NCBI RefSeq assembly: GCF_032854445.1
Contig: NC_088299.1
Span: 411,001-475,000 of the forward strand
Length of the DNA: 64,000 nucleotides
Direction of reading: 5' to 3'
Source: Liolophura sinensis
Taxonomy: Eukaryota; Mollusca; Polyplacophora; Chitonida; Chitonidae
Shown here: piece after piece, positions 25,401-56,309 of the stretch
Position numbering within the stretch: position 1 is the stretch's first letter
How the letters are laid out: each line of letters opens with the position of its first letter
The notes under the pieces: model-generated
Told to the model about the DNA's origin: nothing
Seen by the model: only the letters and a program-made list of their open reading frames with translations
Database searches by the model: none
Position numbers and translations under genes: made by a program

Positions 25401-28400
25401 CGCAGCCTCATCACTACCTCACACCTTGTGTCCTCTCACCCAGAATTTCAAACTTTCATCAATAAAGCTCATACCTCCTCAAAGTTTAGACAGTTTCCAG
25501 CATTTTAATACCAAACATGCACCTGTGCACCAAAAATGGACGCCTTGGAGCCAAAAAAGACTTTATACCCTAAAATTCACAGAACTACAATCGTCCCTAC
25601 CGAAAAACGGAAGTTGTAATGGGGGTCTGTGTCCATTTTAGGTATTAAGTTTTGAACAAGACTAAATGTCTATCTGTCAGACACTGTAGTTGGTTGACCA
25701 TGTTGGTGTGTATATTCTTAAATGTTAGGTAATAAGTCTTTGAAGAAGACTAAATGTGTATCTGTCAGACACTGTAGTTGGTTGACCATGTTGATGTGTA
25801 TATTCTCACATGTTAGGTAATAAGTCTTTGAAGAAGACTAAATGTGTATCTGTCAGACACTGTAGTTGGTTGACCATGTTGATGTGTATATTCTCACGTT
25901 TTAGGTAATAAGTCTTTGAAGAAGACTAAATGTGTATCTGTCAGACACTGTAGTTGGTTGACCATGTTGATGTGTATATTCTCACATGTTAGGTAATAAG
26001 TCTTTGAACAAGACTAAATGTGTATCTGTCAGACACTGTAGTTTGCTGACCATGTTGATGTGTATATTCTCATGTTTTAGATAATAAGTCTTTGAAGAAG
26101 ACTAAATGTGTATCTGTCAAACACTGTAGTTGGTTGACCATGTTGATGTGTATATTCTCACGTTTTAGGTAATAGTTGGCCATGAAGAGCAGTCAGTGGA
26201 GGCCGTAGTGTGGAGTGGACAGCGACTCTTTACAGCAGGACTCAGTGGAGATGTGGTCGAATATGACTTGTGTAAATTACAATCAAAGGTGAACCAAAGT
26301 CTTAAAAAATTTGCATTTTTGGATTTAAACATGCAAACCCCAACACAAAATCATTGCGGTCATTACTGGAGTTTTATGTCGAAGTGAATTTAACACACAC
26401 AGAATAGTCATGGATGTGAGAAATTTTCAAACAGTTGGAAAGGATGTTTTTAATGACAAGGATGCACAGCTACAAGACAGAAGTGGGTAATGCTTGTATT
26501 ACAGTGTCTAGGAATCACTGCCTTCAGAAATGCCTTTCCACACTATTAATTTTTGACGTGTAACTTAGATTTGATTTAGGAAAATAGGAAATACTGTAAG
26601 GGCCCCAAATAGCATTATAGGAACATTCCATTATTAACCAACTTGTGAAAAATTGGTAATGACCATGGTGGGCGGTCATTTTGCGGACAGGCTTGTGAAC
26701 ACTCTGAAGTAAAGTATTTGATGTTTTGAAAAATGTCTGAAATGCATTGGATTTTAGTATTCATAAAATTGATTTTATTCAGTGATTTAGAGACATGGGC
26801 CATATGGGCCCCAGGTGGATACTATTATAGCCACGAGGGCAACCAATAGCAAACCATACACCGATTCACGCTATCAACGATAAGTTCTTTCTAAACAATG
26901 GATGTGGTCTAAAACTGCTGTTAACTTTGGGGTCTTACCTCTCAGCTCGCCCGCACACATAACATCTCACATATATTCCATTTGGTAAGGACCCACAAGA
27001 CCCAAGCTCACCTCGCAGTCATCGCAAAAGCAGCAGCTATTCTGCTTCGCCACAGTTATGGGACTTAAAAAAGTTATTGTTCCTCGATGGCACATAAGCA
27101 TTAAACCTGTAAAGACAAGCCTAATGGCCGCCTTGAATAAAAATGGTTTGCTGTGTCGTGAGTACGGGTCTAGTGTCCCATTACTGACTGGAATATACCT
27201 GGGATGTTGCATGTGGGGGCAAGCTGAGGAAAGAGAGGTAAAAGTTGACACCACTTTTGGACTGCAGCCATTGTTTAGAAAGAACTTGTCGGACATGGCA
27301 TGAAGTGTATGGGTTACCATTGGTTACCCCTGTGGCTACGATACTCTGCCAGCTCAATGCAAAGAGAGGAGTTGAAGTAGCCACCTGGGGCTAAGGCCAT
27401 GTGTACTTGCATGTTTCGGTTGTAATAAATTGTAGATAATTTTTATGAAGATAATTTGCATTATAGCAGTTATTTATCACTGTATTGCTACACATACAAA
27501 TAAACACTGCAACAAAGATAAGTTACCTCCCCATATAACAGTTTATATTTCCCAAGATATTTGCCAGATATGTGATAAAAAGAATACTTACCATTCAAAA
27601 ATCTGGTTTAATGTGTTTTTTTTTCTAACTTATTTAATGTTCCAAATTTAACGAGGTTCACCGCAATCTCATTAAACTGCTACTACATGTATAGGATAAT
27701 CGTTGATACATCTTGTGGACTCAATTTCAGGAATGATGTGAGAAAATTTTATCCTTATTTGGCTGTTAAAATATATCAAACAGTGTTGGACCTAACTTAT
27801 TTTGGCTGCACCTTTGATTTATCCCCAGTACATGTAATTCACTTGGTTCTATAGTGAAACATTGCAATATGTGTACGATATGTTGGCTTCCTCGCCGGCC
27901 GTAAGTGGGAAGGTCTGCAGCAACCTGCGGATGGTCGTGGGTTTCCTCCGGGCTCTGCCTGGTTTCCTCCCACCATAATGCTGGCCGCCATCGTATCAGT
28001 GAAATATTCTTGAGTACGGCGTAAAACACTGATCAAATAAATAAATAATGATTGCCCATGTTTTGTGTTTGCAGACATTTGTGTCCTCCAATGCTGGAGC
28101 GGTGTGGTGTCTGACCAGAAATTCATCGAACACTAAACTGGCTGTAAGAATTGTCCTCCGCTCATACATTTATTATCAACACTTACCACACAAAACTGGA
28201 TCTTAAAATTCCTACACATATTACTTGTAACATCACTGGATAAAAGTTATGCAGTTTTCCAGAGGTGTTCTAAGAATAATTGAAAAAATTCTTGAAGTGC
28301 TTATCAATGGTATAAATAGCAAATGCCACTCATTTGGTGACGCCATTTTGCCATGTTATAGCCAACTAGCATGACCTCACTAAACTTAAAAGTTCCCTTG

Positions 28401-31400
28401 TACCATCAGTATTAAACAGTGGGGCCATTAGAAAAATACAATCAAAAGCTTAAAATGCTGAACTAAAGAGTTTCAGGCTTGTTCCTTCACAAACATTTCT
28501 TTAAATATGTCAGTCACAGTCAGGGAAATCTCAGCAGGTCTGCGTCTCTCGTCTGCATGGGTGTCAGCATTAGGCCTAGCTGACTGTACTGACATTAGGG
28601 AATATATCAAACATAGCAGGGCCTTCTCATTTGGAACAAACTCTTTCCTGCAGGTGTTGGAAAAGATATTTTCGTAATAAATCTGAATTCACTGAGGAAA
28701 CATAATGCGACGTCACAATGTCGGTATCTTTGTGTTGGTCTCCCGAGATGATTTTCTTGCTGGCTCGCCCTGACAAGTATCGGTCTTCTGCCCACCACAT
28801 AGGCTATGTCACATGAATAACCATTCTGAGTTGCCTGCCGCACAAATGCGTGCACCAAGTGCAAAATGATTCAATTTAACCCTTAAAATAGCTTCAAAAT
28901 CCAGTTTTTTGCATTTATTTTTGTCTACCCACAATGGCCAAGTTTATGAGGTCTTCAACCTGGCTATTCAGAGTGAACTGCTCATCAGTGCCATATCCCG
29001 AACACTGAACTCTATCTTCTTGTCTTTCAAAATAAATGTTTCGAATATTTTTCTGTGATACCTGAGCCCTATTGTCTTCATCCTGTACGTATTTAGTGGC
29101 AGACTTTACGTGACCACATGCTCACTACCTAATCTCCTGGAGACGATTTCTTACGGTTTACAGGTTTATGTGACGATGGTCTGAAATGTTTCAAGCAGTT
29201 TTTACGGCTGTTTGACGTCTGTTTCTGAGGTGTGATAAACCCATTGATCTTGTACAGGCGTCATTACCCATGGACGTCCAGAACACAAACAACCCCTTAT
29301 ACCCTGAGAAATCCTTTGGCGTCGGACAAGCACCACTGTTTCTGTAACAATACATCCACCGCGTGACCTCCTGTTGTACTAATCCTGCGGCGAGCATACC
29401 AGCCGCCTGATTACGTTAGTTTAACAACAGTCTTGGCATAACATTGTAATGCCTTTAACACTGACTGGGTGAACTTTTGCAATAGTTGAAGTGTGATTTT
29501 CCATTGACACACAACCGGCACGGATAGCACAGTTGGTAGAGAGTCCGCTTCGGGACCAGTAGATCCAGGATCAATCCTTGATCGAGTCACACCTAAGACT
29601 CTAAAAGAGGAAGTTGTAACTTCCTCGCTTGGCGTTCAGCATGAAGGGGATAGTGCAACAACTGGTTGACCCGTATCAGTATAATGGCTCGGGCGGGGCG
29701 GCTTACTTGCCTTCAGTAAGTCGTCTCAGTGAAGCAGCACAAAATAAAAGAGCGGTGGAAATCCGTCCTGCAACAAGGAGGCACATTACATGCACCCTAA
29801 GGATTCCTTCATCGTCTTATGACTGAAAAATTGTTGAGTACGACGTTAAACCCCAAGCACTCACTCACTCACTCCATTGACACACAAAACTGGCAAATCA
29901 GAGCATGCAATGCTGTGAAATACTCACCAAGGGGCAAAAGTCACATGGTGCATGTACTTCCTGTAACACTTCATTTATTGTCAGTGCATAATTGGAGGTT
30001 TGCCTATAGCGAATATTAATGTAGGATGTATTTTTATAGTTTTTAATGTTCGTTCAAACGTTTCAAAATTCTGCAAACTTAGATGTACAGTGCCTTTTTT
30101 TTGGAAGTATATTTTATTCACACTCTCGTGATCTGTCTGTGGAAGTCTAAATGGACCTGTGTTTGTATTCATATTAAAGATTTTCTCCTGGTTGTATTTA
30201 AATTTTTGAAATGATCAATTAGGTTGGTTCATTGTTTATTAAAGATGAGAGTCAATTTAAATAAAATGTTGTTGTAGGCTGGCACAGAATATGGCTGTAT
30301 TGTGTTGTTTGATCTGACTGGTGAATTATTGACCTATGAGAAAGCTTTTGACAGACAGGAAGGTAAAAGTTATTTGTAGTGAGTTTCTTATTAAGACCAT
30401 GCTGTTTCTCATAACCTTTTTGAAAAGTTTTGTTACATTGCATTTGTTTATTTATTTGATTGGTGTTTTAAGCCCTACTCAAGAATATTTCTCTTATACA
30501 ACGATGCCCAGCAATATGGTGGGAGGAAACCAGGCAGGGTCCGGGAAAGCCCACAACCATCCTATGAATGCTGACAGACCTTCTCATGTAGGTTGTTACG
30601 TTGTAAGAGATCAATTTCACAGTATAAAAGAAATGGTAAACTTTGTTTTTTTCTAGTTTGGTGCCTGGGTAGCCTTGAAAACAACCATGAAACAGTTTGT
30701 TGTTTCCAACTATTTCCATTGCCATGACTACAGTGGTTGCCATGGTCACATTGTACCTCATACCCGAGTCAGTCATGATGTCAGACATTTGAAGTAAAAC
30801 TTAACTCAGCAGGCCGGGTATAGTGAGTAGCCTATCTGACACACACCCTCCCACCACCACCACTTGAGATTTTGAAAGAAACTGTGTCTCCTTGAGGGAA
30901 TGCTGAAAAGACGAGAAACAAGCATGGCCCCCCATTTTATGTCTCCCATACCTAATAAACGGAATATGCCTCTTGATTCCTTTGATTTAGAAAAGACAAA
31001 ATGCATTAAAGGAGCACATGATGACTTTTTGCAAACTCGATATTTCAGGTCGTATACTGTCATTGTCATGGCACGTGAATGAGGAAGTCATTGTGACAGG
31101 GGGAATTGACAACATCAGGGTGTGGAGCGTGAATTCAGGACACGCCATACAGCGCCTGACTCTACCCAGGCAGGAGAACCACAAGGAGACCATTGTGTGG
31201 AGTGTGGTGATCACAGGGTGAGTGTGGCCTGTGGTGATCATCAGATGAGTGTGGAGTGTGATCACAAGGTGAGTGTGGAGTGTGGTGATCACAGGGTGAG
31301 TGTGGACTGTGGTGATCATCAGATGAGTGTGGTGATCATCAGATGAGTGTGGAGTGTGGTGATCACAAGGTGAGTGTGGCCTGTGGTGATCATCAGATGA

Positions 31401-34400
31401 GTGTGGAGTGTGATCACAAGGTGAGTGTGGAGTGTGGTGATCACAGGGTGAGTGTGGCCTGTGGTGATCATCAGGTCAGTGTGGAATGTGGTGATCACAA
31501 GGTGAGTGTGGAGTTTGGTGATCACAAGGTGAGTGTGTCCTGTGGTGATCATCAGATGAGTGTGGTGATCACAAGGTGACTATGGACTGTGGTGATCATC
31601 AGATGAGTGTGGAGTGTGGTGATCATGAGGTGAGTGTGTCCTGTGGTGATCATCAGATGAGTGTGGACTGTGGTAATCGCAAGGTGAGTGTGGACTGTGG
31701 TGATCATCAGGTGAGTGTGTAGTGTGGTGATCACAAGGTAATTGTGGACTGTGGTGATCACAGGGTGAGTGTGGACTGTGGTGATCACTAGGTGAGTGTG
31801 GACTGTGGTGATCACAGGGTGAGTGTGGACTGTGGTGATCACAAGGTGAGTGTGGACTGTGGTGATCACAGGGTGAATGTGGACTGTGGTGATCATCAGG
31901 TGAGTGTGGAGTGTGGTTTAACTCTGCCATTGCTGTGTTTGTTGTGTAACCCGATTACGCTGAACCTTGTTTCGTACTGAGTCAAATCCAGAGGAATCGA
32001 CTCGGTACGAAACATGGTTCAGTGGTATCAGGTTACACAACAAAGACCAAGATGAAGGTGTTAAAGTCGATTCTACTCCCCAAAAATGAAGAAAACGGGG
32101 CAAAAACGACATATTTCATGCTGCTGCTCTCTTTTCCTCCCTCCACAGAACTCACGCATTATAATCCAATCAACGTCAAGTTTAGGCCATAGCAGTTGAC
32201 CTAGATATTTCAAAGCTGCTTCTGTGTGACGTGTCTATTTGTTGCATAACATAGGAATGCAAAGGTTAACTGTACATGTATTATGACGTAACGCCGAGCT
32301 CAGACTGAAACAAATGTTTCTTTTTCCACATCATAACGCCTGGTTGTAAAACATCACACGGGTGAAAGAACAGGGATATCTATAAACTGTGTAAAATAAC
32401 ACTTTTATCACAGAAGGAAATTTCAGTAGTTAACTTTATATAAATCATGGAAGCAAATCTAACTAGTAAACAATCTCAAATTCTTATATTTGCATACATA
32501 AAGATTTATTTGTTTATTTATTTGATTGGTGTTTTACGCCGTGCTCAAGAATATTTCGCTTATACGGCGGCGGCCAGCATTATGGTGGGTGGAACCCAGG
32601 CGCATACATAAAGAGCATGAAATGATATTACCCAGGGAGGCAAACGTACCCGCCGGTGTTTGTTATGCGTGACACACTGGATATTGTTTGAAATGCCGTC
32701 TCTATTTAGTATGTATTGTATATTTGTACGCAGACCCCAGTGAACATTGGGGTAGAATGATCATAAGATTCACTTTTCAGTTTCTAAGATTCAGAGAAAG
32801 AGATATTTAAAGATAATTTGCATAAGTGCATGTTATTTTGCTGCATAAATTGAACATGAAATGTTCAGAATTTGTGTGTATTCAATGTTAATGGTAGATG
32901 TTAAAGGGGCTTAGCATGCCAACATCGCGCAATGACCCAGGAGCCTCTCTCCGATGCGATCGGTGTGAGTTCAAGTCCAGCTCTCCGGTCGTATGTGGGA
33001 AGGTCTGGTAGCAACTAGCAGGAAGTTACATACTTTTAGATAATGGACTTCTGATAATATTTAAATTTCGTGTAACACTTTCACCACTAAATTTAACTTT
33101 TGGTGAAGGTCACTTGCCTTCCATCTGCCGAGTGTGCATATCTTTATGTTACACATGGGCAATTAAGTTTATCACTAACTTTCTAAAGTTTGGTGGCTTT
33201 CCGGTTTTGTTTACCCATGAAACTCAGTGCCATAGTATTTAAATATTCTTGAGTATTACATTAAACGACAGTCAAATAATGCTTCATCCATTGGTCACAG
33301 AACTTTGTTTTCTATATTTTCCTGTATTTTTAGGAATTTTTATCATATTTTTCCTATATTTTATGAAAACCTCCTACTGTATAGTTTCTCCGATATATTT
33401 GCTGAGAGTCACTCTGAGGGCTGCCAAACCCAGAAAAAGCATGTTACATGCACAGTTGAAATGGTGACTTAGAGAGTCTGTTAACTCAGATGCTAAAGAC
33501 TAGTACCTCTAATTCCGACACAGAGTGTAGTAAAGATTCTTCCATTGTGTCTCTCTCTTATTCAGTTATGTCCAACTTAATGTCAGCAGTGGGCCTGAAC
33601 TAAAAACTTGTCGTCAGAATATATAAACAATTCAGTTTAATGACTTGAGATCGTTATGTTGGTCATGTGACTCATTACAGTCTCTCCTAAATCTTGATTT
33701 CATCTAAGTTGCGCCACAACTTTACAAAGGCTTTAAATATTTTTTGTTTTTTTTTTGGTGGTTAAAACGCCCGTGCAAGTCATCTTAAGATGTTTACTGT
33801 CTTTATTCAAACAAAAAGTATCACAGAAAACCAGTCATTTTAACAGAATTTTGTTTATTTATTTATTTATTTATTTGATTGGTGTTTTACGCCGGACTCA
33901 AGAATATTTCACTTATACGACGACGGCCATCATTATGGTGGGAGGAAACCGGGCAGAGCCCGGGGGAAACCCACGACCATCCGCAGGTTGCTGGCAGACC
34001 TTCCCACATACGGCTGGAGAGGAAGCCAGCATGAGCTGAACTCACAGTGACCACATTAGTGAGAGACTCCTGGGTCATTACGCTGCACTAGGGTGCTAAC
34101 CAACAGAGCCTCGGAGGCCTACAACAGAATTTTAAGGGGTGCAAATGACTCTCTTTTTCGATTTCTTGAGAGCGATTGGTTGCTCCCCTGCCTGTCTCAT
34201 ACAGCAAAGCCTGTTATACATGGTTTATGTTGCCATAGCAACCAACTCCATTTCATACATTGGGTATTGTGCTCTCTGTTGGTAAGGATGCCCTGTTTAC
34301 TTTTGTTTCAGTGACATGACCATCATCAGTGGGGACTCGCGGGGGAAGACTTCATTCTGGAATGGGAAACAAGGAACAGTAATCAGGGTAAATATTAAGC

Positions 34401-43400: not shown

Positions 43401-46400
43401 TATTATATAAATTTTAATTTACACAATTAATATAGAATGCTTTCAGTTTAGGGTTAAGAACACTGATTTGTTTTATTTATCATATACATCCATGTAGGAC
43501 ATATAAAAGAAAAAAAAAATACGAAGTAACACATGAAACAAAAATAATTTTTTATTCTTTTTAAGATTATTAAAAAATAATATTTTCTTGTGGACTATAA
43601 TGTGTTTGGTTTGAATTTCTAAATAATCAAAAGTTTAACATACACATAAAGTTGCAGAAGATGCCTGTAAACCGACTCAAAATGAATACAGCAGCTGCGA
43701 GGTGATACTGTGAATCACAGTAAGCTATAATTTGTATGCCTTGCTGAAATATTTCATCCAAACAAATTAAATATAGTGGTATAATAAACTTATATTTGCT
43801 CGACGAAAAGCATTCAGTAATAATATTAGAGACGTCAGAGAGTCTTTTTTGGTGATATTGTTTTTGAAAACTTACATGTAAATGCCTATGAGAGGAAAGC
43901 TGATTGAAAGACTGGGATATGCTTTGCTGACAAGTTTTTAGATGGAAAACAAAGTCATAGTATATGAATTCCTGTCAAATAATATTTAACATCATGCTTG
44001 TTAGGCTGTCAGATATGTTTTGTGGGTTAATAAGGAAGCTAGGGCTTTTGTCCACTGGGCTTCTGTCCTGAATTTGGCCTTTATAGCTAAATGTACATGT
44101 TGGAAAGTCTGAATTCAGGGAGAACACTGCTGCGCAAAGTCCTAGGTTAGGTAATTATGAAAACAAACAACTTTTAAAGTTGTTTGTTTTAAATTTCATA
44201 GTTTTTGTCATAGTTTTGAAAACTTTTGTGTACATCATTAAACACTGATCAGCTGATTAATTAGATAAAACAGAAGCTTGAGCAGTGACAGTTGAGTGTA
44301 GCCTGAGTGTATTTGTGTAGCTGGTCATTTTAACAAAAAGTAAGGAAAACCAAGACAACCAATGTTAAAGAAAAAGTAATCAAAAGACTAACCAAAAGGT
44401 CATGTCTAAAAACATGAATTACAATATAATACAGTTTATCTATTTGTATGATTTATACAAATTTGAATTTATATTTATTGATTTATATTTGAATTTATAC
44501 TGATGTGATGGTTTTTTGTTTTTTTTTCGTTAATATTTAATTGTATCTTTGCTTTGTCACTTCAGGAAGCTGATGGATCTGTGACTCCAAAAATTTCATT
44601 GACAAGGATCAAGCTGTCCTCAGCTGTGGCCTGTCCCGCCCACAAAATCATGTTTACACCTGATGTCCGTTACTGTGTCATTGCTGCTTGTGATGGAACA
44701 GTAAATGTTTATGAGCTCCACTCAGATTGTGTCAGCATGTACCACTCCTTCCCTTCTCCCTCAGGTAGGATGTCATCTTACATGTGTACCACTCCTTCCC
44801 TTCTCCCTCAGGAAGTATGTCACCATACATGTATACCACTCCTTCCCGTCTCCCTCAGGTAGGATGTCACCTTACATGTATACCACTCCTTCCCTTCTCC
44901 CTCAGGTAGGATGTCACCATACATGTATACCACTCCTTCCCGTCTCCCTCAGGTAGTATGTCACCATACATGTATACCACTCCTTCCCGTCTCCCTCAGG
45001 TAGTATGTCACCATACATGTATACCACTCCTTCCCGTCTCCCTCAGGTAGGACGTCATCATTCATGTATACCACTCATCATGCACGTATACCACTCCTTC
45101 CCTTCTCCCTCAGGTAGTATGTCACCATACATATATACCACTCCTTCCCTTCCCCCTCAGGAAGGATTTCATCACACATGTATACCACTCCATCCCTTCT
45201 CCCTCAGGTAGTATGTCACCATACATGTATACCACTCCATCCCTTCTCCCTCAGGTAGTATGTCACCATACATGTATACCACTCCTTCCCTTCTCCCTCA
45301 GGCAGTATGTCACCATCCATGTGTACCACTCCTTCCCTTCCCCCCACAGGTAGGATGTCACCATACATGTATACCACTCCTTCCCTTCCCCCTCAGGAAG
45401 AATTTCATCACACATGTATACCACTCCATCCCTTCTCCCTCAGGTAGGATGTCACCATACATGTATACCACTCCTTTCCTTCTCCCTCAGGTAGGATGTC
45501 ATCATGCACGTATACCACTCCTTCCCTTCTCCCTCAGGTAGTATGTCACCATACATATATACCACTCCTTCCCTTCCCCCACAGGTAGTATGTCACCATA
45601 CATGTATGCCACTCCTTCCCTTCTCTTTCAGGTAGTATGTCACCATACATGTATACCACTCCACCCCTTCTCCCTCAGGTATTATGTCACCATACATGCA
45701 TACCACTCCATCCCTTCCCCCACAGGTAGCATGTCACCATACAAGTGTACCACTCCTTCTTTTCTCCCTCAGGTAGTATGTCACCATACATGTATACGAC
45801 TCCTTCCCTTCTCCCTCAGGTAGTATGTCACCATCCATGTATACCACTCCTTCCCTTCTCCCTCAGGTAGTATGTCACCATCCATGTATACCACTCCTTC
45901 CCTTCTCCCTCAGGTAGGATGTCACCATACATGTATACGACTCCACCCCTTCTCCCTCAGGTAGTATGTCACCATCCATGTATACCACTCCACCCCTTCT
46001 CCCTCAGGTACATGTAGTGTGTCACCATCCATGTATACCACTCCTTCCCTTCTCCCTCAGGTACATGTAGTGTGTCACCATCCATGTATACCTCCCCTTC
46101 CCTTCTCCCTCAGGTAGTATGTCACCATCCATGTATACCACTCCTTCACTTCTCTCTCAGGTAGTATGTCACCATACATGTGTACCACTCCTTCCCGTCT
46201 CCCTCAGGTAGTATGTCACCATACATGTATACCACTCCTTCCCTTCTCCCTCAGGTAGGACGTCATCATTCATGTATACCACTCCTTCCCTTCTCCCTCA
46301 GGTAGGATGTCATCATTCATGTATACCACTCCTTCCCGTCTCCCTCAGGTAGTATGTCACCATACATGTATACCACTCCTTCCCTTCTCCCTCAGGTAGT

Positions 46401-49400
46401 ATGTCACCATCCATGTATACCACTCCTTCCCTTCTCCCTCAGGTAGGATGTCATCATTCATGTATACCACTCCTTCCCGTCTCCCTCAGTTAGTATGTCA
46501 CCATACATGTATACCACTCCTTCCCTTCTCCCTCAGGTAGTATGTCACCATATATGTATACCACTCCTTCCCTTCTCCCTCAGGTAGTATGTCACCATAC
46601 ATGTATACCACTCCTTCCCTTCTCCCTCAGGTAGGATGTCATCATGCATGTATACCACTCTTTTCCTTCTCCCTCAGGTAGTATGTCACCATACATGTAT
46701 ACTACTCCTTTCCTTCTCCCTCAGGTAGGATGTCATCATGCATGTATACCACTCCTTCCCTTCTCTCTCAGGTAGTATGTCACCATCCATGTATACCACT
46801 CCTTCCCTTCTCCCTCAGGCAGTATGTCACCATCCATGTATACCACTCCTTCCCTTCTCCCTCAGGTAGTATGTCACCATATATGTATACCACTCCTTCC
46901 CTTCTCCCTCAGGTAGTATGTCACCATACATGTATACCACTCCACCCCTTCTCCCTCAGGTAGTATGTCACCATACATGTATACCACTCCACCCCTTCTC
47001 CCTCAGGTAGTATGTCACCATACATGTATACCACTCCTTTCCTTCTCCCTCAGGTAGTATGTCACCATACATGTATACCACTCCTTCCCTTCTCCCTCAG
47101 GCAGTATGTCACCATCCATGTGTACCACTCCTTCCCTTCTCCCTCAGGTAGTATGTCACCATACATGTATACCACTCCTTCCCTTCTCCCTCAGGTAGTA
47201 TGTCACCATCCATGTATACCACTCCTTCCCTTCTCCCTCAGGTACATGTAGTGTGTCACCATCCATGTATACCTCCCCTTCCCTTCTCCCTTAGGTAGTA
47301 TGTCACCATCCATGTATACCACTCCTTCCCTTCTCCCTCAGGTAGTATGTCACCATCCATGTATACCACTCCTTCCCTTCTCCCTCAGGTAGTATGTCAC
47401 CATCCATGTATACCACTCCTTCCCTTCTCCCTCAGGTACATGTAGTGTGTCACCATACATGTATACCTCCCCTTCCCTTCTCCCTCAGGTAGGATGTCAC
47501 CATACATGTATACCACTCCTTTCCTTCTCTCTCAGGTAGTATGTCACCATCCATGTATACCACTCCTTCCCTTCTCCCTCAGGTAGGATGTCACCATCCA
47601 TGTATACGACTCCTTCCCTTCTCCCTCAGGTAGTATGTCACCATCCATGTGTACCACTCCTTCCCTTCTCCCTCAGGTAGTATGTCACCATACATATATA
47701 CCACTCCTTCCCTTCTCCCTCAGGTAGGATGTCACCATCCATGTATACCACTCCACCCCTTCTCCCTCAGGTACATGTAGTATGTCACCATCCATGTATA
47801 CCACTCCTTCCCTTCTCCCTCAGGTAGGATGTCACCATCCATGTATACGACTCCTTCCCTTCTCCCTCAGGTAGTATGTCACCATCCATGTGTACCACTC
47901 CTTCCCTTCTCCCTCAGGTAGTATGTCACCATACATATATACCACTCCTTCCCATCTCCCTCAGGTAGTATGTCACCATACATATATACCACTCTTTCCC
48001 TTCTTTTTTAGGTAGGATGTCATTATCATTTCAGTAAAGCCGTCATATATACATAGAGTAACGCAAATGTAGTGCAGTCATGTTCATGTCACATTTAATC
48101 AATACCGCAGGAAGAATTGAAAGCAATTACACAAAACAACATGTGATCTGATCTGGAATCTGCTGTCGTTGACAGGTCCCACAAAGAATATTGAAACTAC
48201 AAAGGCCATACCCAGAGTCATGCGACATTGTGATTTGCATGTCATCGGCTGTTTATATTTGAATGCACTCTGTCATTTATAGACTCACATCTCCTGACCG
48301 AAATTTCCACTTAATGAATGCTATTCGTAGGTCATCAGAGCCCATATTTGTAAGGTGTGAAGATGTATGTATGTTCTGATGCAAACAAATTGGGTGAAAA
48401 TGGATTTTCTAATGACAGCCGACCTGTAATGTCGAGCCTATAATTTTGGTAATTCAGAGCAGTACAGTGTTCATGTTAGACAATGTTTGTTCAACCTACA
48501 GAAAGGTATCCCCTCTTCCTTCCCACCCGATTACCCTCTTACAAAGCTCTGCTCAGGTGCACCCAGCTGTGTTTTAGGCAACACATTTTTTATGAGCCAG
48601 AAAATAAGACAAACTAGTCGATCAATAGATATTTAGACAAGAGGAAAACGTTTTGGTGTGATTCAAACAAAATAAAATTTTTTATTGGTTTTGGCGGCAT
48701 GTTCATGTCTCATACAAGTGAGCTCTTTGGTAGCCTTGCCACCAATTCTAAGTCTTATTCTTGTAAATTGCAAAGAATCTCTCTTGTCTTTTCAGAACCA
48801 GCATCTCCTGTTCAGCTACTCAGCATCAGTCCACATAGCAAATTGTTAGCTGTGTATCATCATAATCACCCAATCCAGATATATGATATCAAAAGCAAAG
48901 AGGTAATTGTTCACATACTTGTTTTTTTTTTTTTGTTGGTTTTTTTTTTCTATAGTATACAATATGGAAGCTAAAGACAAATCTGCCCAATGAAAAACTC
49001 AAAAATAAGGAACATGAATTTTAACCAATTGGAATCAAGTTCAATTAGTCCAATGAAAAACTCAAGAATAAGGAACATGAATTTTAACCAGTTGGAATCA
49101 AGTTCAGTCAGTCCAATGAAAAACTCAAGAATAAGGAACATGAATTTTAACCAGTTGGAATCAAGTTCAATCAGTCCAATGAAAAACTTAAGAATAAGGA
49201 ACATGAATTTTAACCAATTGGAATCAAGTATTTAAGAATTAATGCCAAAAGCCCTGTTTATGTGCATGGCTAGTGTATTGAATGAATATTTTCTCTCGCC
49301 ATCAGATGATATCCAAATCAACTTTAGAAAAATAAGTGAAATATGTGTATTCTTGACTAAACATAAAACTCCAAAAAGTTCAGCAGAAGTTTCATTTTGT

Positions 49401-52400: not shown

Positions 52401-55400
52401 TCTGCCAGGGTTTAAGCTGAGTGGGATCTCACTGGATAATCAGTAAACAGCCAATTTGTGCTGTTTTACATTTGTTGGAAAACCACTTGTCTTCCGAAAG
52501 TTTTTCTGTAATTTACAAAAGGTTGCTTGTTTATCCCAGGGACTACAGTCTCCTGCAAGCATAGAACTGACCCCCATCGTATATCTGAAAAATTCTTAAA
52601 TATTGGGGGCCTCCGTGGCTAATCAAATAATAATAAATCAGAAATCTTAAATATTGTTTTTAAGAGCACAAAGCAGCAGTCAATATATCACGGTAAAATA
52701 ATCATATTATTGAATGCAGCAGGTGCCGATTTTCATGTGACTGTTTTACAGGTGCTGGAGTACTGTGTGGCTGAGGAGGAATACACTGCCTGGTGCAGGG
52801 AACATCTGAGGAAAGCCCACCCACAGTGGATGAGGCGTACCAGCAAGATCTACTGGATAGACTTCAACCCACAAGCCCCCCACCAGATCCTGTTGCATGA
52901 TGAACAGATGCTCTGTGTCCTTGACAAGTCACAGGTTAGAAAAGTATAAGAGAAATAGGATAGATCGAAATCAAGAGTTCAATACACAACAGTCTGGCTG
53001 TCTCTGTTCATTTGGACAGAAATCTGAAATAGTTGCTCAGTCAAGTGTTCAATCCACAACAGTTTGGTTGTATCTATCTGTTCATTTCGATACATCTATT
53101 CCCAGCTGTAGACACGGAATTCTCCCATTTTCACACATTGTGAGACCATGGTGAATACAAGCTGATGGCAGTGCTTGTGGAGCCATTGCCTCCGTCATCT
53201 ATGAATATGGTGCGCATGCCTGTATGCCAGATGAAGGAAAGTTTGTCAATAACTTACCTAAGGTATCAGGTTTAACCTGGGCTCTTTGGTTTCCTCCATA
53301 TTTAATTACATCATATAGTAAAAATCCCTATTATGGTGTCAAGTGACTACCAAATTTATGAATAAATGAGTAAATTGAAGGGAAATCTGAAATTATTTTT
53401 GGCAGTTAAGAACTTGGCGAGATAGTGCAATGTTTGTATAGGGGCGAAGTGGTGGTGGTCAAGATGTCGAGTAAAACACGTGATAAAACTAAAACATTTT
53501 GCCAAACAAAGTTGTCCCCCCTAGTTCATGAAACACGGAATCCATCTGTGTTAGGCTCTGTTTATGTTCTGCTTCAGCCATTCCCAGACAGTAGCATCAA
53601 CATATACAGCAAATCCGCTTCGGAGAAGCATTCAGGGTGCGGCACATCGTCTGAGCATGCCTTCCACATATGCATGAAATACAAGGTAAGCGGATAGTCC
53701 AGATATGAGAAAGGCAGATACCTGTGGTATTGGGCTCCCAGTAAAACATCTGGTAGGGTATGGCAGAGAATCGGCCCCAGAGAGGTACATAAGAAAGCGC
53801 AAATTTCAAAATCCCAAGACAATTCTGTACATGTCCCAATCGGAGGTATAAACCTAAGCACCCCTATACATGTTATGGCAACAGAAGACACGAGTGCATA
53901 GGAATAAACCGCTAAATATGCACTATTGATCAAGAATGCCAACTTTTGGTGGATTTGATGCGCTGTGTTTTTAGTTTACCGTATGAAGATCAACATTAAC
54001 CAGAAAAATATTTTTACTGGAACTTTCATGCATAATTTCCTGCATGCTGTCAAAATTTCGTTTTGGTTAACTTTTATCTTCATATGTAAAATAAATTTTA
54101 TGTTATAAGTTTTGTCATTTCCTGCAGGCTGTCAAAATTTCGTTTTGGTTAACTTTTATCTTCATATGTAAAATAAATTTTATGTTATAAGTTTTGTCAT
54201 TTCCTGCAGGCTGTCAAAATTTCGTTTTGGTTAACTTTTATCTTCATATGTAAAATAAATTTTATGTTATAAGTTTTGTCATTTCCTGCAGGCTGTCAAA
54301 ATTTCGTTTTGGTTAACTTTTATCTTCATATGTAAAATAAATTTTATGTTATAAGTTTTGTCATTTCCTGCAGGCTGTCAAAATTTCGTTTTGGTTAACT
54401 TTTATCTTCATATGTAAAATAAATTTTATGTTATAAGTTTTGTCATTTCCTGCAGGCTGTCAAAATTTCGTTTTGGTTAACTTTTATCTTCATATGTAAA
54501 ATAAATTTTATGTTATAAGTTTTGTCATTTCCTGCAGGCTGTCAAAATTTCGTTTTGGTTAACTTTTATCTTCATATGTAAAATAAATTTTATGTTATAA
54601 GTTTTGTCATTTCCTGCAGGCTGTCAAAATTTCGTTTTGGTTAACTTTTATCTTCATATGTAAAATAAATTTTATGTTATAAGTTTTGTCATTTCCTGCA
54701 GGCTGTCAAAATTTCGTTTTGGTTAACTTTTATCTTCATATGTAAAATAAATTTTATGTTATAAGTTTTGTCATTTCCTGCAGGCTGTCAAAATTTCGTT
54801 TTGGTTAACTTTTATCTTCATATGTAAAATAAATTTTATGTTATAAGTTTTGTCATTTCCTGCAGGCTGTCAAAATTTCGTTTTGGTTAACTTTTATCTT
54901 CATATGTAAAATAAATTTTATGTTATAAGTTTTGTCATTTCCTGCAGGCTGTCAAAATTTCGTTTTGGTTAACTTTTATCTTCATATGTAAAATAAATTT
55001 TATGTTATAAGTTTTGTCATTTCCTGCAGGCTGTCAAAATTTCGTTTTGGTTAACATTTATCTTCATATGTAAAATAAATTTTATGTTATAAGTTTTGTC
55101 ATTTCCTGCAGGCTGTCAAAATTTCGTTTTGGTTAACTTTTATCTTCATATGTAAAATAAATTTTATGTTATAAGTTTTGTCATTTCCTGCAGGCTGTCA
55201 AAATTTCGTTTTGGTTAACTTTTATCTTCATATGTAAAATAAATTTTATGTTATAAGTTTTGTCATTTCCTGCAGGCTGTCAAAATTTCGTTTTGGTTAA
55301 CTTTTATCTTCATATGTAAAATAAATTTTATGTTATAAGTTTTGTCATTTCCTGCAGGCTGTCAAAATTTCGTTGTGGTTAACATTTATCTTCATATGTA

Positions 55401-56309
55401 AAATAAATTTTATGTTATAAGTTTTGTCATTTCCTGCAGGCTGTCAAAATTTCGTTTTGGTTAACTTTTATCTTCATATGTAAAATAAATTTTATGTTAT
55501 AAGTTTTGTCATTTCCTGCAGGCTGTCAAAATTTCGTTTTGGTTAACTTTTATCTTCATATGTAAAATAAATTTTATGTTATAAGTTTTGTCATTTCCTG
55601 CAGGCTGTCAAAATTTCGTTTTGGTTAACTTTTATCTTCATATGTAAAATAAATTTTATGTTATAAGTTTTGTCATTTCCTGCAGGCTGTCAAAATTTCG
55701 TTGTGGTTAACATTTATCTTCATATGTAAAATAAATTTTATGTTATAAGTTTTGTCATATTTTGCCAACGTTTAAACTCCATATCTCTGCTGATGTACGC
55801 AATGCATCCTTCATAGCATGTGAGTTAGTGAAGTCACGTGGGAGAAGAGCAACTTTTGAGAAAGAGTTCGAAACTTAGTGTTTCTAATTTTTTTCCATCG
55901 GAAACATACTATTGTGAGTTAAGATATAGGTCTTCTTGTATTATATACATATACATTACACATAGTTGTGTGATCAGGGCTGTTGGATCGATATGGGGCC
56001 TTGTTGGGTCAATATGGGGGCCTGTTGGATCGATATGGTGGCCTGTTGGATCGATATGGGGGCCTCTTTGGCAACATGAAAGTGTCAATGTGTTTTTCTG
56101 TGAGGGTTACCAATGCAGCTGAATAACTTGGGGAGAAAGGAATTCTGTTTAAGTATTAAGTTTACATAAATTTCTTTTTTATTTTTTTCCAGTTTTTGCT
56201 TCATGTTGAAGCTCTGAAAGATGATTGGTTAGTGGTTGTTGAGCGACCGCCAATCACAATCTTTGATGCATTGCCACCAACACTAAAACAGAAGAAGTTT
56301 GGAACGTGA
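19386..56309 (+). CDS. UTP4: UTP4 / cirhin, small-subunit processome WD-repeat protein, 18 coding exons, complete
   Basis: UTP4 is a nucleolar t-UTP (UtpA) subunit needed for pre-18S rRNA synthesis and processing. Joining the 18 exons listed separately gives 2052 nt, encoding 683 residues (human cirhin 686), with every phase consistent. Landmarks are the N-terminus MANFRVHRVRFFEYQPKAI, WD-type strands such as SDGTLEIWSIED, QRLFTAGLSGDVVEYDL, RILSLSWH, HTHDVRSLAYAGHFIISGG and HLEVWRLGCT, then LAFTPDSDNLVLAYADQ and HQILLHDEQMLCVLDKS, and the family's exact C-terminal signature ending KQKKFGT. It should form two beta-propellers. The ATG lies 15 nt after a strong acceptor, so a 5' non-coding exon upstream is likely but was not found. 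Introns are full of minisatellites, three of which copy UTP4's own splice sites. The gene is head to head with CHTF8. Confidence 0.97.
19700..20025 (+). mobile_element. dispersed repeat D, copy 1 (UTP4 intron 1)
   Basis: About 320 bp are shared in the same orientation with 51318-51655: ttctgtgttaggaggagaat, cagttcgtacattt, agaaggtagcgaacagtaca, gtttgttttccgc, ggttccgagtttac, aacgactctcattggctg. No ORF and no obvious SINE head. Class unknown. Confidence 0.75.
20283..20656. repeat. compound tandem repeat (about 49 and about 63 bp units), UTP4 intron 1
   Basis: The core cattgatcactgaagtattg plus tgctgttgagttttcttcac is repeated six times. Some units carry an extra ctgtttttcttcacc insert, giving two unit lengths. 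Confidence 0.9.
22820..23015 (-). mobile_element. SINE-A copy (UTP4 intron 1)
   Basis: From tttatttattcatttgattg through tacttaagaatatttcac, atggtgggtggaaaccg and ccttcccacgtccagctgga to cgcattggtgagagactcct. The tRNA head is missing. Confidence 0.88.
23154..23208 (+). CDS. UTP4: UTP4 coding exon 2
   Basis: 55 nt, residues 35-53: SDGTLEIWSIEDKWFQEK, the first WD blade. The acceptor is ctttctag and the donor AAG|gttggt. Confidence 0.94.
24028..24480. mobile_element. 453-bp MITE-like insertion, copy 1
   Basis: It interrupts one minisatellite unit. The left end ggcctcggacccccatta and the reverse complement of the right end, ggacacagacccccatta, form about 18-bp imperfect inverted repeats. ATTT flanks both sides (24024-24027 and 24481-24484), consistent with a 4-bp target duplication. 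It encodes no recognisable transposase. A 104-codon open frame inside it resembles nothing I know. Confidence 0.65.
25182..25634. mobile_element. 453-bp MITE-like insertion, copy 2 (by segmental duplication)
   Basis: It appears identical to 24028-24480 at an offset of exactly 1154 bp, and flanking minisatellite units match too. It was therefore copied with its surroundings and not inserted a second time. Confidence 0.75.
26169..26288 (+). CDS. UTP4: UTP4 coding exon 3
   Basis: 120 nt, residues 54-93: VIVGHEEQSVEAVVW, then SGQRLFTAGLSGDVVEYDL. The splice acceptor and the first six bases come from the last minisatellite unit. Alignment to human (EKFFPGHES) needs no gap, so this acceptor is the right one. 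The donor is AAG|gtgaac. Confidence 0.95.
27888..28048 (+). mobile_element. SINE-A, 5'-truncated, next to exon 4
   Basis: From ttggcttcctcgccggccgt through aacctgcggatggtcgtggg and accataatgctgg to aaataaataatg. Only 26 bp separate it from exon 4, so the branch point may be inside or right after the SINE tail. Confidence 0.9.
28075..28143 (+). CDS. UTP4: UTP4 coding exon 4
   Basis: 69 nt, residues 94-116: TFVSSNAGAVWCLTRNSSNT and KLA. The acceptor is ttgtgtttgcag and the donor GCT|gtaaga. Phase 0 at both ends. Confidence 0.9.
29511..29875 (+). mobile_element. SINE-B, near full length (UTP4 intron 4)
   Basis: The tRNA-like head has box A (tagcacagttggtagagag) and a box-B-like ggatcaatccttgatcgag, then a body with ggttgacccgtatcagtata and cagtaagtcgtctcagtgaa, and an end with acgttaaaccccaagcactc repeated as cactcactc. 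Confidence 0.85.
30278..30362 (+). CDS. UTP4: UTP4 coding exon 5
   Basis: 85 nt, residues 117-145: AGTEYGCIVLFDLTGELL, then TYEKAFDRQE. The acceptor is gttgttgtag and the donor AAG|gtaaaa. Ends one base into Gly145. Confidence 0.93.
30446..30592 (-). mobile_element. SINE-A, truncated (UTP4 intron 5)
   Basis: From tttgtttatttatttgattg through actcaagaatatttctctta, atatggtgggaggaaaccag and aaagcccacaaccatcc to gacagaccttctcatgta. Confidence 0.85.
31049..31217 (+). CDS. UTP4: UTP4 coding exon 6
   Basis: 169 nt, residues 145-201: RILSLSWHVNEEVIVTGG, then IDNIRVWSVNSGHAIQRL and ENHKETIVWSVVITG. RILSLSWH matches human exactly. The donor is ACAGG|gtgagt. The last 23 coding bases and the donor are the first unit of the 27-bp array. 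Confidence 0.95.
31192..31917. repeat. 27-bp minisatellite carrying the exon 6 donor, about 27 units
   Basis: The unit is gtgagtgtggactgtggtga plus tcacagg, with atcatcag and atcacaag variants. Unit 1 is the end of exon 6. Most units hold a gtgagt donor, and many hold the 8-bp palindrome gtgatcac. The period is a multiple of three, giving long repeat-driven open frames on both strands. In the UTP4 frame each unit reads TGA. Confidence 0.95.
31937..32045. mobile_element. fold-back element with about 50-bp arms
   Basis: tttgttgtgtaacccgatta with ctgaaccttgtttcgtactg pairs with ctcggtacgaaacatggttc and ggttacacaacaaag. The loop is only a few bases, and there is no ORF. It lies right after the 27-bp array in UTP4 intron 6. 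Confidence 0.75.
32508..32597 (-). mobile_element. SINE-A 3' end fragment (UTP4 intron 6)
   Basis: tttgtttatttatttgattg, gtgttttacgccgtgctcaa, cggcggcggccagcattatg, gtgggtggaaccc, then it stops abruptly. Confidence 0.85.
32915..33282 (+). mobile_element. SINE-A, interrupted or diverged copy (UTP4 intron 6)
   Basis: The head-side body (cgcaatgacccaggagcctc, gtgtgagttcaagtccagct, tgtgggaaggtctggtagca) is followed by unrelated sequence and then a tail (aaatattcttgagtattaca, ttaaacgacagtcaaataat). Confidence 0.65.
33851..34118 (-). mobile_element. SINE-A, near full-length copy (UTP4 intron 6)
   Basis: The (ttta)n tail, gattggtgttttacgccg, gcagagcccgggggaaaccc, ggcagaccttcccacatacg and ggagaggaagccagcatgag are followed by the head complement (gggtgctaaccaacagagcc, tcggaggcc). 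Confidence 0.92.
34312..34387 (+). CDS. UTP4: UTP4 coding exon 7
   Basis: 76 nt, residues 201-226: DMTIISGDSRGKTSFW, then NGKQGTVIR. The acceptor is tttgtttcag and the donor AGG|gtaaat. Confidence 0.94.
36232..36528. repeat. 19-bp tandem repeat, about 15 copies
   Basis: The unit is catatcctgtagctcatgg, with gta(g/a)ctcat alternating irregularly and one catgtcat variant. Confidence 0.95.
36600..36695 (+). mobile_element. SINE-A, decayed 3' part
   Basis: acaataatactggctgctgg, taatcttgagcatggcgtag and caataaatagataaa follow the family order with many substitutions. Confidence 0.6.
36986..37033 (+). CDS. UTP4: UTP4 coding exon 8
   Basis: 48 nt, residues 227-242: SFQSHKADVLCLAVNE. The acceptor is cgttctctttttcag and the donor GAG|gtaaag. 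It corresponds to the human HLIANADVQSIAV segment. Confidence 0.9.
37176..37496 (+). mobile_element. SINE-C, near full length (UTP4 intron 8)
   Basis: The tRNA-like head (tcagtggccgaatggttaaa, gtgcccgcc) is a Leu/Ser-type box A. The body has tgagaggttagagcaaggaa, ggttggcccggtgtcagtat and gcatggactcgccctgccac, and the end acgttaaaccccaaacatac resembles SINE-B. Confidence 0.8.
38207..38378 (+). CDS. UTP4: UTP4 coding exon 9
   Basis: 172 nt, residues 243-300: SENSVLSSGVEPTLARFEYV, a linker with DWKTWIR, then HTHDVRSLAYAGHFIISG. HTHDVR is identical in human. The acceptor is ttttgtag and the donor GAG|gtaaag. Confidence 0.95.
39318..39378 (+). mobile_element. SINE-A head fragment
   Basis: ctgtggttagtgtgctactg, cagtgacccaggaacctctc and accagtatgatgg match the head region. 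It is immediately followed by a fuller copy, so the insertions are adjacent or nested. Confidence 0.6.
39378..39640 (+). mobile_element. SINE-A, full-length copy (UTP4 intron 9)
   Basis: ggggggcctccgtggctcag and ttggttagcgcgctagggca form the Pol III head, followed by caccagtgcagttgctatga, the body, aagtgaaatattcttgagta and tcaaatcaaatc. Confidence 0.92.
39650..39822 (+). mobile_element. SINE-A, 5'-truncated copy in tandem with the previous one
   Basis: atccagctctagctggcttc, acgtgggaacgtctgccagc, atgtccgtgggtttcccctg, agtgaaatattcttgagtac and atcaaataaataaatt. About 20 bp of the body near atcaaaatggtggcc are replaced or lost. Confidence 0.88.
39947..40029 (+). CDS. UTP4: UTP4 coding exon 10
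   Basis: 83 nt, residues 300-327: GVDTNLAFTDLEKRKPGC, then KSRKIPAIPQ. The acceptor is gatttattacag and the donor CAA|gtaagt. Confidence 0.92.
40362..40634. repeat. 139-bp tandem duplication (UTP4 intron 10)
   Basis: Two copies of ggctagaatttg(c/t)atttgc, aaaagtacaggctgatcgat and gaggcaaggtcagctgcatt at an offset of 139 bp, with several substitutions between them. Confidence 0.9.
40640..40895 (+). mobile_element. SINE-C, 5'-truncated copy
   Basis: It shares cactgagaggtaattagagc, aaggaaacttgactgtttgg, ggtgtcatgtctagtgtctt and agcatggacttaccttgtca with 37176-37496. Confidence 0.75.
40987..41086 (+). CDS. UTP4: UTP4 coding exon 11
   Basis: 100 nt, residues 328-361: KSLVAVATNANLVVLNY, then STHLEVWRLGCTRASS. 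HLEVWRLG parallels human HLELWRLG. The acceptor is gctttgacag and the donor CAG|gtaggc. Confidence 0.95.
41581..41665 (+). mobile_element. SINE-A tail, decayed
   Basis: tcccccacccatgattctgg, tagcttcttgagaatggtgt and caatcaaataaatag, heavily mutated. Confidence 0.5.
41764..42014 (+). mobile_element. SINE-A, full-length copy (UTP4 intron 11)
   Basis: The head gggggcctccgtggctcagt and tgtttagcgcgctagtgcag (box A) with gtgagtccaagtccagc (box B) are intact. The body has lost the gggctctgcccggt segment. The tail is (aaat)4. This is a useful reference copy for the family. Confidence 0.93.
42529..42689 (+). CDS. UTP4: UTP4 coding exon 12
   Basis: 161 nt, residues 361-414: RHGEVLPLREGPTKLLQL, NRIVCFAISSDGKWLAYSD, RMRLYCLSL. 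The SDGKWLAYS blade matches human PCGSWIAYS. The acceptor is tttgttttcag and the donor CTG|gtgggt. Confidence 0.95.
42690..44565 (+). other. UTP4 intron 12, no recognised element
   Basis: About 1.9 kb, AT-rich, with a short degenerate run of acaaaaccccc-type words near 42880-42950. No exon, SINE or array is seen beyond that. Confidence 0.55.
44566..44764 (+). CDS. UTP4: UTP4 coding exon 13
   Basis: 199 nt, residues 415-481: EADGSVTPKISLTRIKLSS, HKIMFTPDVRYCVIAACDG, TVNVYELHSDCVSMYHSF and PSPS. The acceptor is gtcacttcag and the donor CAG|gtagga. The last 25-29 coding bases are the first unit of the 47-bp array that fills the next intron. Confidence 0.95.
44736..48020. repeat. 47-bp minisatellite carrying the exon 13 donor, about 70 units
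   Basis: The unit is taccactccttcccttctcc, then ctcaggtagtatgtcaccat and acatgta. Variants have gtacatgtag inserts (53 bp) or tcatcatgc. It starts inside exon 13 and fills 3.25 kb of the 4.03-kb intron 13. Each unit contains a polypyrimidine tract, CAG|GTAG and, in many copies, the palindrome atacatgtat. Its open frames are repeat artefacts. Confidence 0.97.
48796..48902 (+). CDS. UTP4: UTP4 coding exon 14
   Basis: 107 nt, residues 481-516: EPASPVQLLSISPHSKLLAV, then YHHNHPIQIYDIKSKE. The acceptor is cttgtcttttcag and the donor GAG|gtaatt. Confidence 0.94.
48987..49230. repeat. 63-bp tandem repeat, 4 copies (UTP4 intron 14)
   Basis: Copies start at 48987, 49050, 49113 and 49176. Each has ccaatgaaaaactcaagaat, aaggaacatgaattttaacc and agttggaatcaagttca. 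The period is a multiple of three and leaves both strands open. Confidence 0.95.
49726..49886 (+). mobile_element. SINE-A, 5'-truncated (UTP4 intron 14)
   Basis: tctccggctgtacgtgggaa, gctgcggatggtcatgggtt, accataatgctggccgccgt, aagtgaaatattcttgagtg and caatcaaataaataaataaa. Confidence 0.92.
50535..50620. repeat. 37-bp tandem repeat, about 2.3 copies
   Basis: gtgcagctggttgcttacca and cagctgatgcgtggaaa repeat twice, followed by a partial third, directly before exon 15. Confidence 0.85.
50664..50759 (+). CDS. UTP4: UTP4 coding exon 15
   Basis: 96 nt, residues 517-548: TVCNLPLYSCQPTALAF, then TPDSDNLVLAYADQM. The acceptor is ccattaaccttacag and the donor ATG|gtaagt. Confidence 0.94.
51318..51655 (+). 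mobile_element. dispersed repeat D, copy 2 (UTP4 intron 15)
   Basis: It matches 19700-20025 in the same orientation with an extra gatggagaactcttccc segment that copy 1 lacks. Class unknown. Confidence 0.75.
52175..52340 (+). mobile_element. SINE-B/C-like internal fragment
   Basis: catgtctggtgtcttaagca and ccagtgaagcagcaccataa resemble internal parts of the two smaller SINE families. No head or tail. Confidence 0.4.
52606..52640 (+). mobile_element. SINE-A with the whole body deleted
   Basis: The head start tgggggcctccgtggct is joined directly to the tail aatcaaataataataaat, so only about 35 bp of the family remain. Confidence 0.7.
52752..52934 (+). CDS. UTP4: UTP4 coding exon 16
   Basis: 183 nt, residues 549-609: VLEYCVAEEEYTAWCREHLR, WMRRTSKIYWIDFNP, HQILLHDEQMLCVLDKSQ. 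ILLHD is identical in human. Arg564 (in AWCRE) aligns with human Arg565. The acceptor is gactgttttacag and the donor CAG|gttaga. Confidence 0.95.
53578..53685 (+). CDS. UTP4: UTP4 coding exon 17
   Basis: 108 nt, residues 610-645: PFPDSSINIYSKSASEKHSG, then EHAFHICMKYK. HAFHICMKYK parallels human HAFKISKIYK. The acceptor is tatgttctgcttcag and the donor AAG|gtaagc. Confidence 0.92.
54030..55760. repeat. 82-bp minisatellite, 21 near-identical copies (UTP4 intron 17)
   Basis: The unit is ttttgtcatttcctgcaggc, tgtcaaaatttcgttttggt, taacttttatcttcatatgt, aaaataaattttatgttata, ag. Only a few units differ (cgttgtgg, taacattt). Each has an acceptor-like catttcctgcag, the palindrome cctgcagg and AATAAA with T-rich sequence after it. 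Confidence 0.97.
55978..56072. repeat. about 27-bp tandem repeat, about 4 copies
   Basis: ttggatcgatatgggggcct recurs with small changes (gggtcaatatgg, gatatggtgg). It lies about 120 bp before the last UTP4 exon. Confidence 0.85.
56193..56309 (+). CDS. UTP4: UTP4 terminal coding exon 18
   Basis: 117 nt including TGA, residues 646-683: FLLHVEALKDDWLVVVERPP, ITIFDALPPTLKQKKFGT. The VERP motif and the C-terminal KKFGT match the human end KKKKFGT. The acceptor is attttttttccag. Confidence 0.97.
   Translation, partial: FLLHVEALKDDWLVVVERPPITIFDALPPTLKQKKFGT

Follow-up and report, generated by a model that had tools for sequence, protein, structure and literature searches.

The UTP4 gene and the start of intron 13

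The window analysed here, 64,000 bp of the chiton Liolophura sinensis (positions 411001-475000 of contig C5 in the 609-Mb assembly), carries the coding part of a housekeeping gene, UTP4/cirhin, on the forward strand (18 exons, 19386-56309), and intron 13 of this gene begins with a long tandem array, array C (44740-48022, +), in which the exon 13 donor boundary is repeated. The joined exons translate without an internal stop, and the 683-amino-acid product shows 38% identity to human UTP4 along its length. Splice sites were derived from reading frames throughout, and all splice scores are crude ones built on base frequencies. A slash in a motif marks the splice junction.

Exon 13 (44566-44764, +) is followed by the putative functional donor CAG/GTAGGA (44765-44770, +), assigned from the reading frame and the ungapped protein alignment. 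When this donor is joined to the acceptor before position 48796, no gap appears at the exon 13-14 junction in the alignment to the human sequence. In addition, a stretch of 154 amino acids that includes the junction matches a UTP4 homolog of solved structure in the PDB (7mq8_LN, E=4e-17). With a score of 8.4 the donor ranks seventh among the 17 donors of UTP4. Exon 14 (48796-48902, +) has its own acceptor and is no copy of the array C unit. Intron 13 is 4,031 nt long, and 784 nt separate the junction of the last unit from the exon 14 acceptor.

Array C is a copied exon-intron boundary

Array C is composed of units of about 47 bp, each with 25 exon-derived and 22 intron-derived bases, and it sits at the very start of intron 13. 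Tandem Repeats Finder (TRF) reports it as two rows (44740-45076 and 45075-48022). Splitting by unit gave 69 tandem copies; the original prediction, made from the letters of this stretch, had put the number at about 70, and the array is real with this small correction. The 68 spacings between junctions are mostly 47 bp (61 cases), the others being 53 bp (five), 67 bp (one) and 48 bp (one). The exact 24-mer CTCCTTCCCTTCTCCCTCAGGTAG has 27 matches in the genome, every one of them in array C, and the reversed string has none.

The opening 25 bases of unit 1 are the final 25 bases of exon 13, and an ungapped comparison found no likeness to the unit in the exon sequence upstream of these bases. Array C grew from the exon 13 donor boundary. 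Both the identity of exon end and unit and the intact protein that uses the unit 1 donor bear out the earlier claims that the first copy is the true end of exon 13 and that the array arose there. The original prediction had further proposed a duplication of 25-29 coding bases plus the donor, of which the duplication stands and the coding share is now fixed at 25 bases.

An AG is found at the junction in all 69 units and AG/GT in 62 of them, where it follows a pyrimidine tract, so the likeness to an acceptor abutting a donor was rightly described. The donor hexamers are GTAGTA (37 units), GTAGGA (18), GTACAT (5), GTATTA (1) and GTAGCA (1). That a donor GT follows the motif was said of the units in general; this is true for the 62, but the GT has been lost in seven, being replaced by GA in units 2, 9 and 14, by GC in units 12, 44 and 50 and by TT in unit 37.

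Two further boundary arrays in UTP4

Array A (23405-26174, +) consists of 88-bp units and ends at the acceptor of exon 3 (26169-26288, +). Its unit holds TTTTAG/GTAATA, that is, six exon bases, and the exon starts with GTAATAGTTGGCC within the final copy. Two blocks of about 460 bp (24027-24485 and 25181-25639), apparently identical, interrupt the array, and part of it looks as if it had been duplicated in one larger segment.

Array B (31195-31917, +) has 27-bp units that hold CACAAG/GTGAGT and starts on the donor of exon 6 (31049-31217, +), the final bases of this exon being the first copy. Its units correspond to nine codons, the AAG/GTGAGT donors are strong and long stretches are open, and later donors might therefore add nine-amino-acid repeats in frame, unlike those of array C. 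An 82-bp array in intron 17 (54035-55758, 21 copies, 99% matches) does not lie at an exon, and most of its units carry the acceptor-like TTTCCTGCAG.

Survey of arrays in conserved genes

A sample of 233,345 bp was assembled from UTP4 and from nine chaperonin, eight MCM and four class-I tRNA-synthetase regions, the latter three sets picked by protein-family search in families of our own choice. It covers 46 of 50 chaperonin, 26 of 26 MCM and 22 of 24 synthetase family matches; outside it lie an apparently intronless chaperonin pair on C5, one chaperonin on C6, another immediately beyond piece L024 (L numbers denote the fetched pieces) and two weak synthetase matches. Arrays were counted when TRF reported at least 3 copies and at least 100 bp. 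They were called anchored when, as judged by eye, the array took in the splice dinucleotide together with 3 or more bases of the exon. Where an array ran up to the limit of a fetched piece (L033 1-1547 and 7855-8501; L025) or its end was only partly read, it was scored as not anchored.

By this rule 13 of 39 arrays contain or derive from a splice junction (TRF lists 40, as it splits array A in two), and arrays make up 13% of the sampled sequence. The share was 3/7 in UTP4, 5/17 in the chaperonins, 1/6 in the MCM genes and 4/9 in the synthetases, where the last set served as a replicate with a prior written prediction of at least 20%. Nine of the anchored arrays are at donors and four at acceptors. 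The homology of the exons involved is supported by the whole-protein alignment for UTP4, by Pfam for seven other arrays (one under the curated cut-off), by PDB matches for the exons of isoleucyl-tRNA synthetase and CCT zeta and, for the last array, by similarity to one of these exons.

Random placement, with 1.3 times the known splice sites and a tolerance of 58 nt, leads one to expect 2.8 anchored arrays among 39 against the 13 observed (P=2e-6); this null counted 47 chaperonin matches, one too many, and is therefore slightly stricter. The synthetase replicate alone gives P=2.6e-3. With UTP4, the gene that prompted the idea, left out, 10 of 32 arrays are anchored and 2.3 expected (P=6e-5). 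Seven further arrays lie at or near a junction, fail the anchoring rule and were left uncounted. Two in chaperonin genes begin directly at what looks like an exon donor and take in one exon base at most (L023 2089-2340 and L025 7894-8001), two begin about 12 nt past a donor (L022 7174-8344 and L036/L037 5807-6117), one lies about 30 nt before an acceptor (L024 7098-7554), one has a unit sharing 10 nt with an exon start (L038/L039 13601-13763) and one ends at a possible acceptor (L029 1349-1642).

Two loci of the survey are worth describing. At L022 7174-8995 an exon of about 100 bp in a CCT3-like chaperonin gene lies between two minisatellites, one of 13 copies ending at the exon acceptor and one of 43 copies starting about 12 nt past the donor. 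At L033 1779-4568 a 64-bp array of 44 copies extends over 2.8 kb and ends on an MCM exon acceptor.

These numbers suggest that exon-intron boundaries are preferred birthplaces of minisatellites in this chiton and that the splicing machinery ignores the decoys, a reading towards which we lean. Similarly, it is rather probable that a splice site was the origin of about one third of the arrays in conserved genes and that many introns carry tens of near-identical decoys next to the authentic site. The more interesting result of this study is that arrays seeded at boundaries are apparently abundant in a mollusc.

Fate of the copies in splicing

The best reading of array C is that its decoy sites would be silent in splicing, and the sequence holds no hint of their use. 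The commonest donor, GTAGTA, scores 4.4, which is below 16 of the 17 real UTP4 donors, and the weakness ascribed to the gtag donors earlier was found for most of them; 17 decoys share GTAGGA with the real donor. For the acceptors the situation differs. The pyrimidine tract of the unit is the coding sequence for SFPSPS, and the decoy acceptors have a full tract because they are copies of these codons, with a median score of 10.4 compared with 7.9 for the exon 14 acceptor. However, a branch-site-like YTNAY at -45 to -18 occurs in only 8/68 units as against 11/17 real acceptors (Fisher P=2e-5), although this is a rough motif test that 6/17 real acceptors also fail. YTRAY was found in 0/68 units and 6/17 real acceptors.

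Conservation within the array gave no sign of selection on the sites either. In the 62-copy TRF row of array C the junction GT is retained at 0.903, the dinucleotide mean of the unit being 0.904, and the AG column is invariant, as are three other columns. Over the 13 boundary arrays no consistent sign was seen that decoys are kept or purged: the splice dinucleotide is retained above the array mean in nine and below it in four (array B, array C by 0.001, CCT3 donor 2 and CCT6), where arrays A and C are represented by their largest TRF row. Splice dinucleotides that are neither purged nor favoured are expected if the copies are invisible to selection.

We consider it very likely that array C is a mirage-type minisatellite, the kind of boundary-spanning repeat described in amphioxus (PMC3087553), that has grown from an exon-intron boundary and whose decoys are silent. 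A 47-bp segment across the exon 13 donor (25 exon bases, the GT and 20 more intron bases) would have been duplicated in tandem and, by unequal exchange or slippage, would have expanded into the intron up to 69 copies. The outermost copy, still exon, would alone be held by selection on the protein, while the others may drift and be homogenised together. A duplication across a donor would do no harm provided that splicing keeps to the outermost junction, with unit 1 presumably spliced to the ordinary exon 14 acceptor. The silence of the copies would follow from the weakness of most decoy donors (seven units without GT, 37 with GTAGTA and 17 with GTAGGA) and from the lack of a branch-site motif in most decoy acceptors. 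A like process may have acted at two further UTP4 splice sites and ten in the other sampled genes.

The copies could instead be used to tune the dose of UTP4, if inclusion of units or use of later donors sent transcripts into nonsense-mediated decay. The reading frames would permit this. None of the 61 downstream GT donors yields the full-length protein: 60 put a stop inside the exon extension and one gives a later stop, and inclusion of a single micro-exon from the array brings in a premature stop 60 times out of 61. The original prediction, according to which most uses of a unit shift the frame, thus proved right, as nearly all of them break it. But most frame-breaking decoys would do likewise, the column conservation gives no hint of selection for dose control and the two other UTP4 arrays differ in kind, so that such poison splicing appears unlikely.

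Recursive splicing was the idea behind the original prediction, which called the array recursive-splice-like. Exon 13 would be joined to a unit, a donor would be regenerated there and the process would move on through the intron from ratchet point to ratchet point. The layout suits this, with AG/GT after a pyrimidine tract in 62/69 units and 61/68 spacings of 47 nt, and a ratchet point is described as carrying a cryptic exon of about 50 nt (PMC8605326). This claim failed on two tests, as branch-site-like motifs are scarce compared with real acceptors and the GT shows no extra conservation. The commonest donor is weak, intron 13 measures merely 4.0 kb and the acceptor look goes back to the SFPSPS codons. 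Among the 12 other sampled boundary arrays the juxtaposition of tract, AG and GT was seen by eye in array A only, the remaining 11 having no such layout. Since mirage minisatellites as described in PMC3087553 account for the array without any ratcheting, we regard recursive splicing as quite improbable.

Slightly less credit still can be given to an origin of intron 13 itself from the array according to the Rogers model, in which tandem duplication of an exon segment with AGGT creates an intron. The units do carry AG/GT, and vertebrate and fission-yeast cases are cited in PMC4974935. However, intron gain by duplication misfits intron 13 because exon 14 does not start with a copy of the unit, its acceptor lying 784 nt past the last unit junction. 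Finally, a collapsed, inflated or chimeric assembly is hardly credible: at the HiFi coverage of only 14x and mean read of 8.3 kb reported in PMC11068029 the copy number is possibly off, but many units differ among themselves, the array (3.3 kb) is below the mean read length and two further boundary arrays exist in the same gene.

Donor-motif arrays elsewhere in the genome

A threefold repeat of AGGTAAGT has 554 matches genome-wide, compared with 395 for the reversed motif. On C1, among the first 100 matches listed of each, 16 donor-motif loci stand beside 17 reversed ones. Donor-motif arrays as a class enriched throughout the genome, considered as a candidate, are not supported by these reversed-motif controls. 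As there is no clear excess of the donor motif, the boundary effect, if real, would concern where arrays are located and not a surplus of donor-like units.

Two of the 16 C1 loci start on an exon confirmed by family match, namely L005 (Branch, 2e-6) and L009 (GH31, 8.5e-13). In L003, L006, L008 and L011-L014 an open frame of at least 45 amino acids ends at the first donor; no meaningful family match was obtained for these seven, nor any PDB match for L011 and L013, and they were not counted. The L009 array (1410-2166) has 39-bp units, starts on the end of an exon in a GH31 alpha-glucosidase-like gene and lies outside the survey sample. Its unit ends in TACTACTCCATTCCAG/GTAAGT, which makes it a second ratchet-like case. 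Elsewhere, contig C8 carries a run of eight molluscan haemocyanin beta-sandwich domains (37880506-37891931), consistent with one haemocyanin gene. Their presence speaks against amphioxus as the source of the DNA, a candidate that was rejected; a GFP-family search gave no match, which says little by itself since no control gave a signal.

Strength and meaning of the interpretation

Several observations weigh against boundary-grown arrays with silent decoys. Under the most generous null (2 times the known sites, tolerance 110 nt) the excess of anchored arrays becomes marginal or absent, with P=0.05 for 13/39, 0.10 for 4/9 and 0.12 for 10/32. Anchoring was judged by eye, on splice sites taken from frames and in gene families that we selected ourselves. 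One counted array (L040 694-1031) begins 58 nt past the donor and was included since its unit resembles the exon end; omitting it as well as UTP4 leaves 9/32 (P=3e-4). The reversed-motif counts (554/395 matches; 16/17 loci) do not make strong-donor arrays clearly commoner. With respect to array C, the decoy acceptor tracts equal or exceed the exon 14 tract in score and 17 decoys hold the hexamer of the real exon 13 donor, so low-level mis-splicing would not be surprising.

If the interpretation is true, the growth of arrays from boundaries would be a habit of a whole genome outside amphioxus and would provide a standing supply of ready-made sites from which new introns and exons could arise. 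Should the copies be silent, genes like UTP4 would be natural experiments on how the spliceosome chooses one among dozens of near-identical sites, and the sequence itself shows the features that separate the decoys, namely the branch-site motif, the +5 G and the adjacency to the exon. A genome-wide boundary bias would raise the question why splice boundaries are so readily duplicated in tandem. It would also offer the duplication model of intron gain many possible intermediates in another phylum.

Comparison with known systems

The Drosophila ratchet points described in PMC8605326 resemble array C in that an acceptor abuts a donor and a second donor follows about 50 nt on. Compared with that description, array C has few branch-site-like motifs, dozens of copies, a motif no better conserved in the array than the bases next to it and an intron of only 4 kb. 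Judged by these sequence features, recursive splicing would share only the layout with array C.

In the duplication type of intron gain, as set out in PMC4974935, a segment with AGGT is likewise duplicated. In array C, on the other hand, an existing boundary was copied, and intron 13 ends at its own acceptor; copies bounding the intron at both ends, as in the Rogers model, were not found, given that exon 14 is no such copy. Boundary arrays could nevertheless feed this type of intron gain. The internal tandem repeats of human duplicated genes (PMC2812944) are also minisatellites at exon-intron boundaries. According to that account they create novel, often alternative introns in recent duplicates, whereas here the frame of the conserved UTP4 is intact with its authentic sites.

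The closest counterpart are the mirages of amphioxus. The account in PMC3087553 describes tandem repeats that span exon-intron boundaries at either end of an intron, known in Adh3 and the globins BflGb6 and BflGb9, with units of 10 to about 160 bp, of which many contain AG/GT, and with the authentic junction at the array edge. Regular splicing is reportedly undisturbed, and the repeats are proposed there as a route to new introns. The UTP4 arrays share the structural features: the array C unit spans the boundary and unit 1 is the exon end, AG/GT is present in 62/69 units, and both ends of introns are affected, the 5' end by arrays B and C and the 3' end by array A. They differ in belonging to Mollusca and in copy number, 69 against 3 and 6 in two BflGb6 haplotypes as given there. 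A further difference from the amphioxus case as described is that boundary arrays make up about one third of the arrays sampled here. Mirage lengths are described as unstable between haplotypes and somatic cells, whereas array C is known from one assembly.

In print, boundary minisatellites were found for amphioxus and human duplicated genes and none for molluscs, with respect to the open-access literature; intronic minisatellites are treated for abalone (PMC6905558) and earthworm (PMC12783039), with no boundary claim in the accessible parts of these papers. As far as this literature shows, array C would thus be a mirage-type case in a new phylum.

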